Assembly: GCF_003205575.1 (NCBI RefSeq)
Contig: NZ_PYBW01000030.1
Span: 162,170-226,169, forward strand
Direction of reading: 5' to 3'
From: Streptomyces tateyamensis
GTDB lineage: Bacteria > Actinomycetota > Actinomycetes > Streptomycetales > Streptomycetaceae
Length of the DNA: 64,000 nt
Each line of letters begins with the position of its first letter. Within the stretch, counting starts at the first letter, position 1. This document shows, one piece after another, positions 34,893 through 49,776 of this stretch. The notes beneath the pieces were generated by a model. The model ran no database searches and was not told the origin of the DNA. It was given only the letters and a program-made list of their open reading frames with translations. The position numbers were made by a program, and so were the translations under genes.

Positions 34893-35891
34893 GTGCAGAC
34901 CGCGAAGCTCACCCTGTTGACGACCACCCACCGGATCGCCCCCGGGCTGCTCAGCTGGCCCGCCTGGGAGGCGCTGCGCCAGGCACCCCTGGTGCTGACC
35001 GCCGACCCGGCGCACCCCCAGCTGCCGGCGCTGGAGCAGGCCGGGGTGCGGGTCGAGCAGGTGCCGGCGCAGAGCGCCCCGGCGCTGGCCCGGCTGCTGG
35101 TGGAGCGGTCGCCGCTGGTCTTCCTGGTCGGCTCGGACGGCGACCCGGGGCTGACCGACGCGCTGGCCCGGATCGCGGTCGAGCAGGCCGGCCAGGCGCC
35201 GGAGATCGAGCTGCTGCCCGGCTCCTACGACCTGCCCGGCGCCCGGCTGCTCGACCTGGTCACGGTGATGGACCGGCTGCGCTCGCCCGGCGGCTGCCCG
35301 TGGGACGCCGAGCAGACCCACGGCTCGCTGGTGAAGTACCTGGTGGAGGAGGCCTACGAGCTGGTCGAGGCGATCGAGCAGGGCGACCGGGCCACGCTGC
35401 GCGAGGAACTCGGCGACGTGCTGCTGCAAGTCTTCTTCCACTCCCGAATCGCCGAGGAGGACACCGAGGACCCGTTCTCCATCGACGAGGTGGCCGGGGA
35501 CATCGTGGCGAAGCTGATCTACCGCCACCCGCACGTCTTCGCCGACTCCGATGCGGCCACCACCGACCAGGTGGAGGCCAACTGGGAGACGCTCAAGGCG
35601 GCCGAGAAGCAGGACCGCGAGTCGGTGCTGGACGGCGTGCCGAGCGGCCTGCCCGCGCTCGCCTACGCGGTCAAGCTGGTCTCCCGGACCCGCCGGGCCG
35701 AGTTCGGCAAGGTCCCGGACGCGCCCTACGCGCTGCCCGAGCAGCTCACCGAGGCCAGCGCGGGCGAACTGCTGCTGGCCGTGGTGCAGCGGGCCCACGA
35801 CGCCGGCGTGGACCCGGACGCGGCGCTGCGCGCGGCCGCCCGCGACTACCGCCGGGCGGTGCGCGCCGCCGAAGGGCTCACCGAGGACTGA
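34893..35891 (+). CDS. mazG: MazG-type nucleoside triphosphate pyrophosphohydrolase
   Basis: 332 residues. The MazG domain is MDRLRSPGGCPWDAEQTHGSL then EEAYELVEAIEQGD and EELGDVLLQVFFHSRIA, giving the ExxE...ExxD magnesium-binding pattern. It hydrolyses (d)NTPs to monophosphates, cleaning the nucleotide pool. About 120 N-terminal residues form an extra Rossmann-like domain of the SAM-methyltransferase-like type found in actinobacterial MazG. GTG 34893 lies 6 bases after TAGGTT (34881-34886) with no ribosome site, so the mRNA is probably leaderless. Confidence 0.92.
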   Translation: MQTAKLTLLTTTHRIAPGLLSWPAWEALRQAPLVLTADPAHPQLPALEQAGVRVEQVPAQSAPALARLLVERSPLVFLVGSDGDPGLTDALARIAVEQAGQAPEIELLPGSYDLPGARLLDLVTVMDRLRSPGGCPWDAEQTHGSLVKYLVEEAYELVEAIEQGDRATLREELGDVLLQVFFHSRIAEEDTEDPFSIDEVAGDIVAKLIYRHPHVFADSDAATTDQVEANWETLKAAEKQDRESVLDGVPSGLPALAYAVKLVSRTRRAEFGKVPDAPYALPEQLTEASAGELLLAVVQRAHDAGVDPDAALRAAARDYRRAVRAAEGLTED

Positions 35892-35911: not shown

Positions 35912-36328
35912 CTAGCGCACGGCCGAGCCGCTCGGCGCCCGGCGCTGGGCCGGCAGCACCTCGCCGATCGCCTCGCCCAACGGGTCGAGCAGCTCGGCCA
36001 GTCGATCCAGGTCGCCGGGCAGGTCGGCCAGCGCCACGATCCGCTCGCCGTCGGGGCCGGCCACGCAGAACAGGTCGATCCGGCCCAGGTGCTTCTCGGC
36101 GGTGTCCACCAGTGCGGCGATGTCGCTGGGCTGGTGGATGTCGGAGCTGACCCCGGCCACCGGGCAGCCGGTCCGGTCCAGCGCGGCGGCCAGGTCCTCG
36201 GCCACCCCGGGCCGCGGATCGGCGATGAGCAGCCCCGCAGCGCCGGCCGCGGCGAACCGGCGGGCCGGCCCGTCCCCGTCGCCGCCGTCGAGCACGGCGA
36301 TGACCACCACTGCCCCGGCTACTCGCAT
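35912..36328 (-). CDS. Short Rossmann-fold protein, truncated short-chain-dehydrogenase-like
   Basis: 138 residues. RVAGAVVVIAVLDGGDGDGPARRFAAAGAAGLLIADPRP resembles the NAD-binding half of a short-chain dehydrogenase, with GRIDLFCVAGPDG at the place of the NNAG motif. The protein ends soon after, and the catalytic YxxxK is missing. The glycine loop is also altered. It is either a remnant or a small cofactor-binding protein with another job. ATG 36326-36328 has GGGAGGAGC ahead. Confidence 0.55.
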   Translation of the reverse strand: MRVAGAVVVIAVLDGGDGDGPARRFAAAGAAGLLIADPRPGVAEDLAAALDRTGCPVAGVSSDIHQPSDIAALVDTAEKHLGRIDLFCVAGPDGERIVALADLPGDLDRLAELLDPLGEAIGEVLPAQRRAPSGSAVR

Positions 36329-36471
36329 GTCCTGCTCCTCCCTGTGGACGACACCGCACCGGCGTCCACACCACGTATCGGAGGATCGTAGGCGTCTCCT
36401 GACCCTCCGCAACAGGGATTACCCCCCAGGTGAGCAGACTCACTCTCCCGGCTGAGCGATAACGTCGGGGC

Positions 36472-36627
36472 ATGCCGGACCAGTTCCAGAGCCCCGCGAT
36501 GCCACCCCTGTTCACCTGGGAGTTCGCCGCCGACCCCTACCCCGCCTACGCCTGGCTGCGCGAGCACGCCCCGGTGCACCGCACCACGCTGCCCGCGGCC
36601 CTGACCGTCGGGGCTACGCGGGAGTGA
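36472..36627 (+). pseudogene. N-terminal stub of a native cytochrome P450 gene
   Basis: ATG 36472 opens MPDQFQSPAMPPLFTWEFAA then DPYPAYAWLREHAPVHRTTLP, the start of a CYP107-like P450. Similarity stops at 36595; eight unrelated residues follow to a TGA at 36625. Codon use is fully native (high GC3), unlike the following DNA. The stub lies where, from memory, Streptomyces coelicolor carries a CYP107U-type P450 between an SDR-like gene and the rpf genes. The leader GATAACGTCGGGGCATG is nearly the same as that of the antisense P450. Confidence 0.85.
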
Positions 36628-37854
36628 ATTCGACCGGGAGTTCCCGCAGCCCGCGCATGATCAGACCGCCGCGCCAGCGCAGCTCTGCGGGGTCCACGGC
36701 GAGCCGCAGGTCCGGTAGGCGGGTCAGCAGGCTGGAGAGCGCAACCCGGCCCTCCAGACGGGCCAGTGGGGCGCCGATGCAGTAGTGGATCCCGTGACCG
36801 AACCCCAGGTGCGGATTGTCAGCGCGCGCCAGGTCGAGCGTGTTCGGCCGGCTGAACCTGGCCGGATCACGGTCAGCGGCGGCGAGGACGACGAGAACCG
36901 GGTCACCGGTCGAAACGGCTTGGCCGCCGATTTCGAGCGGCTGGGTGGCGTAGCGCCAGGTGGCCAACTCCACCGGGCCGTCATAGCGCAGCAGTTCCTC
37001 GATCCCCGTGTCGAGCAATCGGGAATCTCCGGCCGCAACGGCAGCCTGAAGGAGTGCTCGCTGCGGCGGATTCTGAAACAGCGCCAGCGCGCCGTTGCCG
37101 ATCAGATTAATAGTCGTCTCAAATCCTGCAAACAACAGCACGAAGCACATCGCGACAGCTTCGTTCTCGGTGAGGTGCTCGCCATGGTCGCTGGCCCTGA
37201 TCAGGCCGGAGATCAGGTCGTCGCCGAGGTCCGCCCGCTTGCGATGGATCAGGTCCGCCAGATACGCGCGGATGCGTTTCACGGCGCGGCCCACCCCGCC
37301 ACGTGGACCGCCGCCGTGGCGGATCATCATGCCCGCCCAGTTGCGGAAGTCCTCCTGGTCTTCTTTGGGAACACCGAGGAGGTCGCAGATCGCGTAGATC
37401 GGCAGCGGGAAAGCAAACTCATGGATGAGGTCCGCTGCTCCCGCGCCGGAGAATTCCGACAGAAGTCGATCCGCAAGGCTCTGTACCTGGGGCTCGAACC
37501 CCGCTACCCGGCCCGGTGTGAACGCCTTGGAGACCAACCGACGCAGGCGGGTATGGTCCGGCGGGTCGATGTTGAGCAGGTGCGTCATCAGATTGGCGCT
37601 GCGCTCCCCCGGGATCCCGGTCTTCCCCTTCGCGTGCGCCGACTCGTCGTGGTGAGCCGGGTTCTTGCTGAGACGGCTGTCCGCGAGCGCCTGGCGGGCA
37701 TCGGTGTAGCGGGTTACGAGCCAGGCTTCGACGCCGCTCGGCAACTGGGCCTTGTACACGGGTGCATGCTCACGCAGCCACGCGTATGCCGGGTAGGGGT
37801 TGGAGGCGAACCCCCAGGTGAAGAGTTCAGGCCGATCAGACATACCCCGACGGT
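36604..37854. repeat. 10-bp inverted repeat flanking the antisense P450
   Basis: ACCGTCGGGG at 36604-36613 (touching the P450 stop codon) is repeated inverted as CCCCGACGGT at 37845-37854 (just upstream of the P450 start). A one-base variant, AACGTCGGGG, sits at 36461-36470 before the broken P450. It could be a shared leader sequence or a recombination site. Confidence 0.6.
36614..37843 (-). CDS. Cytochrome P450 (CYP107-like), acquired
   Basis: 409 residues, complete. The I-helix is LFAGFETTINLIG, the ExxR motif is IEELLRYDG and the heme loop is FGHGIHYCIGAPLARLEGR with the axial Cys. It is a soluble class I P450 needing ferredoxin and reductase from elsewhere. Its N-terminus (LFTWGFASNPYPAYAWLR) and C-terminus (RGGLIMRGLRELPVEF) closely match the two P450 fragments on either side, so it is a paralogue of the gene it interrupts. 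Third positions are less GC-rich than in neighbours. Substrate unknown. Confidence 0.93.
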   Translation of the reverse strand: MSDRPELFTWGFASNPYPAYAWLREHAPVYKAQLPSGVEAWLVTRYTDARQALADSRLSKNPAHHDESAHAKGKTGIPGERSANLMTHLLNIDPPDHTRLRRLVSKAFTPGRVAGFEPQVQSLADRLLSEFSGAGAADLIHEFAFPLPIYAICDLLGVPKEDQEDFRNWAGMMIRHGGGPRGGVGRAVKRIRAYLADLIHRKRADLGDDLISGLIRASDHGEHLTENEAVAMCFVLLFAGFETTINLIGNGALALFQNPPQRALLQAAVAAGDSRLLDTGIEELLRYDGPVELATWRYATQPLEIGGQAVSTGDPVLVVLAAADRDPARFSRPNTLDLARADNPHLGFGHGIHYCIGAPLARLEGRVALSSLLTRLPDLRLAVDPAELRWRGGLIMRGLRELPVEFTPA

Positions 37855-38054
37855 ATCCCGCTGCGGGTGCTCGGAGAGCATCGGATCTCTGGACGTCCGG
37901 GCCGCCGCGGTGTGAGCCGTCAGCCGATTTCGATTCGGGAGAACACGCTGTTCGTGTCCGGCCTGACGATCAGACAGATACACTCGCCCGAACATGGGTG
38001 ACCCCGACGGCGCTGCGAACACCTCGGGGTCCGGCCACTCTGGTGAGGAGTGAC

Positions 38055-39152
38055 ATGAGTAATTCAACCTTGCCCGGACGCCGCGTCGCAAGCCGCGTCG
38101 CGGCTCGCCAGAAAGCCGGCCTGTCGGTTCGGATCGCCGTCTACCTCCGCGTCTCCACCAGGAATCAGGTCGAAGGCTCCGGCCTGGATCAGCAGGAGAA
38201 GGACGCGCGAGCGTGGATTGAATGCTGGTTCCGCGACATGCCCTTCGAAATCGTCGGAATCTTCGTCGATGACGGTATCTCAGGGAAGATCGACAACCGT
38301 CGCGACCAGGTGAAGCTCAAGACGGTGATCACCGCCGGTGAGGTTGACCTCGTCATCTCGCAGAGGATTGACCGGTTCGGGCGCACCATGCGTGATATCC
38401 AGCGCTGGGTGTGGGAGATGAACGACCTGGGCCTTCGAGTCGTCACCGCCGACGGCCGCATCGACTCGGAGCACGAGATCGCAGACCTCCTCCTCATGTG
38501 TCACAAGAACAAGCTGTCGGACCGGGTGCGAGAGAAGTCGCTCGCCAGGCCCCACCGGGAGCTGATGGCTCTTCAGGCATCCCTTCAAGAGGCCCAGGCA
38601 TGGCTGAAGGACTGCGAGGCGACACAGCAGGAGGCGAAGGAGAGGGAGGAGTTCATCTCTTCGGCGCGGCTGCGGGTGGGGAGTCTGACCCTGGCGGAGA
38701 AGTCGGCGCTGTTCGCGATGTTCGATGTCCGGGTGTCAGCGGGGAACCACCGGTTCAGGAAGCGGTCGGGTAGGCCGTGCCCGGTGACGGAGTGGCACAA
38801 GGGCACGCAGCACCCGGTGCCGGCCGATATCGACGAGGAGGACTGGGCGGGAGTGAGGGAGATCCTCGCGGGCTACGTGGCGAAGTCGTCGTTCACGAAG
38901 ACGACGATCGACCTGCGCCTGGCCTTCAACGGCATGTTCTACCGCCTGCGCACCGGGACACCGTGGAACGAGATGACGGACGCCTTCGGCAACCCGCAGC
39001 GGATTCGCGAGCGGCAGCTGACCTTCTTCCAGCGCGGCGCGTGGCAGGCAGTGGTGGAGATGCTGAACCAGCGCGGTGGCGGGACGCCCGTGTACGTTGC
39101 GCCGACGGTTCCTCCGCTGAAGATCACGAGTTGCGCCGGCGCGGCGTTCTGA
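38055..39152 (+). CDS. Chimeric serine recombinase with an IS5/DUF4096-like C-terminus
   Basis: 365 residues. The resolvase catalytic domain is intact (residues about 25-150): IAVYLRVSTRNQVEGSGLDQ with the active Ser, FVDDGISGKIDNR, and ISQRIDRFGRTM. It then skips the central domain and zinc ribbon of large serine recombinases. It passes directly to a coiled coil and LTLAEKSALFAMFDVRVSA, the usual tail of that family. The last 95 residues (DEEDWAGVREILAGY...NGMFYRLRTGTPWNEM...FFQRGAWQAVVEMLNQ) look like the DUF4096 N-terminal region of IS5 transposases. ATG 38055 follows GGTGAGGAG. The final residues read into P450-derived DNA. Confidence 0.8.
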   Translation: MSNSTLPGRRVASRVAARQKAGLSVRIAVYLRVSTRNQVEGSGLDQQEKDARAWIECWFRDMPFEIVGIFVDDGISGKIDNRRDQVKLKTVITAGEVDLVISQRIDRFGRTMRDIQRWVWEMNDLGLRVVTADGRIDSEHEIADLLLMCHKNKLSDRVREKSLARPHRELMALQASLQEAQAWLKDCEATQQEAKEREEFISSARLRVGSLTLAEKSALFAMFDVRVSAGNHRFRKRSGRPCPVTEWHKGTQHPVPADIDEEDWAGVREILAGYVAKSSFTKTTIDLRLAFNGMFYRLRTGTPWNEMTDAFGNPQRIRERQLTFFQRGAWQAVVEMLNQRGGGTPVYVAPTVPPLKITSCAGAAF

Positions 39153-39241
39153 TCATGCGCGGGCTGTGGGAGTTGCCGGTCTCGTTCACAGCGGAGGCCG
39201 CAACCCGCGCTGCGGCAGCTGCTGACGGCGTGTCGACCTGA
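39119..39241 (+). pseudogene. C-terminal fragment of a cytochrome P450
   Basis: In a different frame from the recombinase, whose end it overlaps, the DNA encodes HELRRRGVLIMRGLWELPVS then FTAEAATRAA and a stop at 39239-39241. The block matches the C-terminus of the antisense P450 (ELRWRGGLIMRGLRELPVEF) almost residue for residue. No start codon or heme loop is present. It is either the far end of the gene whose stub begins at 36472 or the scrap of another P450. Confidence 0.8.
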
Positions 39242-39344: not shown

Positions 39345-41801
<2,457 letters not shown>

Positions 41802-49691: not shown

Positions 49692-49776
49692 GCCCGGATG
49701 GTGGAACGCAGACACGGGCAGCTTAAAACTGCTTGGCCGTAAGGTCGTGCCGGTTCGAGTCCGGCTCCGGGCACCA
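49692..49776 (+). tRNA. bldA: tRNA-Leu (anticodon TAA), the UUA-decoding bldA tRNA
   Basis: Acceptor arms GCCCGGA (49692-49698) and TCCGGGC (49766-49772) pair. The anticodon stem GGCAG/CTGCT holds loop CTTAAAA, so the anticodon is TAA. A long variable arm marks the class II leucine type, and the T arm contains GGTTCGAGTCC. The discriminator is A and CCA is encoded at 49774-49776. In Streptomyces the only tRNA reading UUA is bldA, which controls aerial growth and antibiotic production; its place near ndh also fits my memory of its chromosomal location. By eye I found no in-frame TTA codon in the intact genes of this window. Confidence 0.93.

Follow-up and report, generated by a model that had tools for sequence, protein, structure and literature searches.

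Among elements comparable to the one described here are skin, an intervening element of sporulation time, and synthetic Cleave-and-Rescue gene drives, which break a host gene and carry a copy of that gene. The gin element of Bacillus cereus, in an excerpt of its description (PMC5595907), is likewise a site-specific recombinase element in a sporulation-tied gene, gerE, and excises, restoring the gene. Islands that restore their target gene, as excerpted from the account of Islander in tDNA (PMC4383910), combine an integrase, a split target, a supplied replacement and a displaced fragment marking the end. Here we describe a locus in a 64,000-nucleotide stretch of contig NZ_PYBW01000030.1 of Streptomyces tateyamensis (the window), where a conserved cytochrome P450 gene is interrupted by a serine integrase remnant and a complete P450 gene of the same kind on the opposite strand. 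This locus is likely an eroded mobile integrase element that breaks the conserved P450 gene and supplies its replacement, with the action of the integrase and the rescue both being putative.

The arrangement differs from the known systems in several respects. Unlike in Islander-type islands, the host gene is replaced by an entire second gene that faces the opposite way and has a promoter core of its own. In contrast to gin, the element cannot restore the gene in the copies seen. Compared with Cleave-and-Rescue it is natural, bacterial and integrase-based; its rescue is putative and there is no sign of drive. Integrases targeting coding genes pay the cost of breakage, whereas this element seems to bring a whole substitute that becomes the resident gene. 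No P450 gene appears as an integrase site in the titles and opening lines of abstracts among the literature matches listed.

The first-pass annotation of the window described a complete minus-strand P450 and a serine recombinase lying between N- and C-terminal P450 fragments, and our analysis confirms this at 36472-39241. The parts are as follows.

36460..36466, plus strand: remnant promoter core TAACGTC of the native P450, 5 nucleotides before the native ATG
36472..36627, plus strand: native P450 N-terminal stub (native residues 2-37, 86% identity, E 5e-16)
36614..37843, minus strand: element-borne complete P450 of 409 amino acids, with AGFET, ELLR and FGHGIHYCIG motifs
37844..38054, no strand assigned: divergent intergenic region between the P450 (minus) and the integrase (plus)
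37849..37855, minus strand: promoter core TACCGTC, 5 nucleotides before the antisense P450 ATG, a motif as found before native P450s
38055..39152, plus strand: large serine integrase remnant of 365 amino acids, with the catalytic domain and C-terminal tail kept and the middle with the Zn-ribbon deleted
about 39128..39241, plus strand: native P450 C-terminal stub (residues 381-405, 68% identity, E 3.5e-4)

Both fragments thus align to P450 termini, as had been proposed, and the C-terminal stub also matches at the DNA level (62 bases, 82%, E 3e-11). Native homology in the N-terminal stub stops at about 36595, some 20 bases before the antisense P450 stop, and the frame then continues into the 3' end of the antisense gene. 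Judged from the stub limits, about 335 of some 410 native codons are gone, close to the 330 first estimated. The idea therefore stands that the native gene has been interrupted and replaced by a recombinase cassette with a P450 paralogue in antisense. However, replacement in one step is probably wrong, since the copies in genomes G088 and G033 (below) indicate insertion at one place in the I-helix followed by deletions.

The cassette has a foreign composition, as expected from the annotation: G+C content at third codon positions (GC3) is 0.80 in the antisense P450 and 0.86 in the recombinase, as opposed to 0.98 in mazG, eno and the N-terminal stub. Apart from the antisense gene, the genome has no full copy of this P450, and its next-best P450 is 45% identical. 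The draft assembly, with 439 contigs, might raise the suspicion of an artefact, or the antisense gene could be an inverted duplication of the native one. These explanations have practically no credibility and are refuted by three observations: 17 genomes have an antisense P450 at this locus, the element P450 falls outside the clade of 41 native Kitasatospora P450s (support 96*), and its GC3 of 0.80 compares with a mean of 0.95 for eight natives. The locus is well within a 236-kb contig.

We take the window P450 locus, from its context near eno, to be that of SCO3099 in S. coelicolor. A link of this P450 to sporulation, which the annotation had proposed, has support at one remove: SCO3099 is classed as CYP107U in an excerpt of PMC6838473, and the title of a reference within PMC10741444 ties CYP107U1 to sporulation. 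The window antisense P450 has the P450 signature motifs, as expected of a CYP107U orthologue.

The fullest known form of the element is about 3.5 kb and comprises a predicted large serine integrase gene and a divergent complete P450 gene of the target's kind. In G033 (Kitasatospora mediocidica KCTC 9733) and G088 this full element lies in the native I-helix codons AG|FETT. The order in G088 is a native N-part open to GDDLI, a 20-bp hairpin (z about -8) before the 3' end of the element P450, the antisense P450, an integrase of about 674 amino acids, and a native C-part running from FETT to the stop. G033 has a similar layout with an additional deletion in the native N-part; parts of both halves are kept. 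In both genomes the stretch between the native halves is filled by the P450 and the integrase, whose frame continues into the native C-part (910-911 codons). The right junction falls at TTYGARACGAC of FETT in all four copies that keep it (G033, G088, G371 and G311), while in G669 and G479 the C-part begins later, at residue 372, and is silent on the junction codon. Separately, G479 (L094 5184-7367) carries about 2.2 kb with an apparent XRE-type regulator, named by its translation, between the native N-part and the antisense P450; this is possibly extra cargo or a later insertion.

Other copies have lost the native halves and finally the integrase, while the antisense P450 survives. The window is intermediate in this erosion, which extends across the 17 loci, between G033 and G088 on one side and G003 on the other, where both native halves are mostly gone and no integrase was found. 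The sequence of decay is reconstructed from copies that represent different stages: fresh insertion, native halves lost, integrase lost, and bare antisense gene. Because the loci can be placed in such stages, a gene that merely looks inverted becomes recognisable as a former mobile gene.

To define the distribution of the element we surveyed 70 genomes of Kitasatospora, the genus to which the window belongs, with P450 matches taken at E 1e-150. G064 has no match and each of the other 69 has a single one. The window-type P450 (94-100% identity) is present in four genomes (G000, G003, G033 and G088), always antisense, and the other 65 have a homologue 79-82% identical. Orientation was read for 45 distinct P450s that were fetched, with 24 of the 69 outside this count; the remaining 41 all read sense, so that relatives with an uninterrupted P450 in the native direction, foreseen by the annotation, do exist. 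Integrase matches are present in three of the 70 (G033, G088 and the window remnant). Across 394 genomes of the family, nine matched the integrase: these three, G371 and G311, and four with the match away from the P450. The gene order in G371 and G311 is mazG, antisense P450, integrase, P450 C-part, eno, in a second genus (g23, presumably Streptomyces).

Further searches of 392 g23 genomes, plus orientation checks, brought the g23 antisense genomes to 13 (G371, G311, G669, G479, G509, G712, G691, G130, G703, G657, G571, G436 and G558). An integrase or remnant is present in G371, G311, G669, G479, G436 and G509, the last with the middle deleted, and was not found in the other seven antisense loci, among which P450 C-part fragments remain in G558, G657 and, weakly, G130. 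The 92 distinct g23 P450s fetched divide into 13 antisense and 79 sense, which is no rate because many were fetched for their high scores. In a check against eno, four of 90 genomes with both gene positions listed were antisense, again in a sample leaning to high P450 scores.

Several comparisons indicate that the element moves. The 11 antisense P450s of g23 included in a 38-row P450 tree group together, with support of 85/88 and in 90% of bootstrap trees. Their hosts do not form one group on eno (approximately unbiased [AU] test, p 1.6e-8, 10 rows), and they are scattered on MazG too. Among the Kitasatospora carriers, G003 and G088 pair on eno (87/83) and G033 and G088 pair on the element P450 (96/82), although monophyly of the four hosts is not rejected (p 0.34). 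Between G033 and G088, synonymous divergence (dS) is 0.109 in the element P450 and 0.099 in the integrase, compared with 0.184 in eno, 0.266 in mfd and 0.371 in mazG, and with 0.41 in the native P450 C-part and 0.86 in the N-part (over 85 codons). Identity between these two genomes drops from about 96% to about 85% over roughly the final 70 bases of the element. The low divergence and the identity step indicate that the element entered after the two hosts parted, and hence at least twice. In addition, G617, a g23 genome, carries a remnant 61% identical over 99 residues to the G033-type integrase, which suggests that this integrase type too has crossed genera. Comparison of hosts and element thus shows horizontal movement with return to one site in two genera.

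Spread of the antisense allele by homologous recombination over the flanks, with the integrase idle in all recent transfers, is an improbable account of the same pattern. It draws on the conserved flanks, on the integrase-less g23 copies on scattered hosts, and on 10 of the 17 antisense loci where the integrase is without its middle (the window and G509) or was not found (eight). However, recombination over the flanks would carry the native C-part along, and the divergence of that part speaks against it: between G033 and G088 the step falls inside the end of the element, and dS in the adjacent C-part is 0.41 as opposed to 0.10.

Large serine integrases possess Recombinase and Zn-ribbon domains and are several hundred residues long. 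The G033 integrase, about 675 amino acids to the junction (a cut that we chose), has a catalytic domain with the serine motif (PF00239, E 6e-26) and the domain set and length of this class. Its Zn_ribbon_recom (E 5e-4) and Recombinase (E 0.05) matches are both below the curated cut-off, and it matches the phrog_95 integrase at E 1e-64. The Y.RVS catalytic motif is present in G033, G088, G311 and the window, and also in G669, G479 and G498, where frames were picked by 'RVST'; the G371 integrase aligns only from G311 residue 34 on, hence without the motif. The Zn-ribbon cysteine pattern is present in G033, G088, G311 and G498 and unmatched in G669, G479 and the window. The window recombinase has a Resolvase domain (E 8e-19) and a DUF4096-like tail (E 1.5e-9), and its alignment with the G033 integrase covers only residues 1-149 and 410-642, which identifies it as an internally deleted remnant, a point that the annotation had not made. 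The DUF4096 match, which corresponds to part of an IS4/5-type transposase, is shared by the window remnant and the G033 integrase (L041:6559-8583, residues 543-616) at E 1e-8 to 1e-9. Identity to the G033 integrase is 36-37% for those of G371 and G311.

Outside Kitasatospora, the relatives of the integrase that bear a name are integrases of Streptomyces phages, such as those of Triumph, phiHau3 and Spernnie in phrog_95. They have the same domains, a similar length and, in the 20 of 45 matches listed, 30-35% identity over nearly the full length. The P450 could therefore be ordinary cargo of decayed prophages integrating here, where redundancy lets either copy go and the pairing is unselected. 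We regard this as possible, if on the unlikely side. Consistent with it, a related integrase in G392 lies near an open reading frame (ORF) resembling, by translation, a phage DNA polymerase fragment. In contrast, no phage genes were seen around the integrase in G033 and G088, whose site is the P450 I-helix, and this P450 was found in none of 50,697 phage records at E 1e-10. Furthermore, cargo and target match in P450 kind and promoter core across two genera and three integrase lineages. A larger form of the element was also sought: one scan with the G311 integrase found no viral contig, no plasmid record had this P450 at 60% identity or more, and one scan of genome contigs matched only K. mediocidica.

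The antisense P450 is intact and strongly constrained. The ratio of nonsynonymous to synonymous divergence (dN/dS) is 0.044-0.072 in six Kitasatospora pairs, and 0.054 and 0.083 in two g23 pairs. A TACSGTC core lies 5-6 nucleotides before the start in all 17 antisense P450s. With TAACGTC allowed, it also precedes 40 of 41 sense P450s in Kitasatospora and 52 of 79 in g23 (92 of 120 together), and we take it for a putative leaderless promoter. The AU test does not reject a single element-borne P450 lineage shared by both genera (0.39-0.43), and a shared I-helix signature favours such a lineage. Cysteine at position 233 (C233) is found in 14 of the 17 antisense P450s, the other three reading A-V-I, but in only five of 120 sense P450s (G498, G615, G617, G603 and G089), nine of the 120 not fitting the pattern used in the count. 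An earlier count without G436 and G558 gave 13 of 15 antisense and four of 88 sense. A recoded target site was considered and rejected: the FETT codons are retained in the element P450s compared, those of G669 and G479 (both FETV) being the exceptions. Recoding thus does not extend to the whole site, and only a signature in the flanking residues is left as a possibility.

We propose that the integrase would insert the element by site-specific recombination at an attB site consisting of the I-helix codons, breaking the native P450. Equipped with a promoter core of its own and shielded by a hairpin from read-through, the cargo P450 would take over the function of the broken gene, and this would make the insertion tolerable. 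Deletions would then remove the left attachment site (attL), the native halves and the integrase, halting at the ends of the cargo gene. With attL lost the element would be fixed, and only the P450 would be kept, now in the opposite direction. Tentatively, this may amount to a natural break-and-rescue system, whose integrase targets the best-conserved codons of a P450 required for sporulation and comes with a rescue copy altered in the I-helix (C233, V235, I245); we consider this fuller proposal rather unlikely. Those three residues beside the site differ from most natives and may make the rescue copy a poor target for its own integrase. The sense, native-like P450s of G617, G603 and G089, which are element-like only at about residues 201-245, carry the same I-helix patch, as though their hosts had acquired it. 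The element also offers an integrase, probably directed at a conserved P450 motif, that can be examined in laboratory Streptomyces.

Several observations weigh against an integrase element of this kind. Codons are missing to the left of the site, 29 in G088 and 21-23 in G033 as counted by eye, and attL was found in none of the 17 copies, so that the insertion site is defined from one side only. No transfer, structural or conjugation genes were seen in the element, the whole stretch not having been put through a family search. The integrases at the P450 locus fall into three lineages and a single clade is rejected (AU p 0.0045, in a tree with the G436 and G615 rows assembled from pieces), so the integrase and the P450 may at times have moved separately. 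In the best P450 tree, element P450s from Kitasatospora are neighbours of natives from that genus (95/93). Loss of constraint in the native halves of G033 and G088 is only mild: the ratio of nonsynonymous to synonymous changes (pN/pS) in the C-part is 0.27-0.50 compared with 0.16-0.39 among natives, and dN/dS in the N-part resembles that of natives. Finally, in G498 (L095 7281-10674), G615 (L096) and G617, integrase sequence lies behind a P450 in the native direction.

The incomplete left junction also bears on whether the element could be a developmentally excised intervening element, of the skin or gin type, that restores the native P450 in sporulation. It is favoured by the serine recombinase lying in a sporulation-linked gene. 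However, 21-29 codons are missing at this junction in the best copies and about 335 in the window, attL is present in no copy, and the window integrase is without its Zn-ribbon, which makes this reading very improbable. Precise excision would not restore an open gene in these copies, and for the window the reading is refuted.

Returning to the sense P450s with integrase sequence behind them, an inversion between native and element N-parts is a possible explanation, since these parts are inverted repeats and recombination between them may turn the P450 back. One good witness is G617 (L107 895-2715, minus strand), where the sense P450 is followed by a reversed 52-nucleotide arm with 87% complementarity to its N-part, then by the integrase remnant and finally by a second P450 C-part. 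No reversed fragment was seen in G498 or G615. The P450s of G498 and G615 are native-like at residues 71 and 84 and element-like at 233, 235 and 366, resembling a native N-part joined to an element-like remainder, but those of G617, G603 and G089 are element-like only in the I-helix region given above. The P450 sequences are thus not the simple mixture expected, which weighs against inversion. The P450 gene may flip direction in repeated rounds.

Related integrases were also observed away from the P450. In G392 (L081 8118-13297) and G125 (L080 9426-12995), the integrase has an intact ABC-2 type permease gene on one side and a second, incomplete copy in the same direction on the other (87% and about 53% identity), with a greA-like gene adjoining, all named by translation. 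This arrangement suggests that coding genes serve as sites for the wider integrase family, which would bring replacement sequence along. No such gene pair surrounds the integrase in seven other integrase loci without this P450 (L078, L079 and L223-L227), while L226 has repeats of another gene, away from the integrase.

A tRNA-Leu with anticodon taa, presumably of the bldA type, was noted at window positions 49692-49776. As a check on bldA control, TTA codons were sought and found in none of 121 P450 coding sequences and none of three integrases. The neighbours of the element in the window are the following.

34893..35891, plus strand: mazG-like gene, left flank, matched in all 17 antisense loci
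35912..36331, minus strand: short ORF resembling short-chain dehydrogenases/reductases (SDR), between mazG and the native P450 (adh_short, E 2e-6)
39441..39603, plus strand: cyclic di-AMP (ydaO/yuaA) riboswitch, upstream of rpfA, right flank
39607..40317, plus strand: gene for an rpfA-like LysM protein, which we take to be rpfA, right flank

The SDR-like short ORF is also present in G003, G033, G088 and G089.

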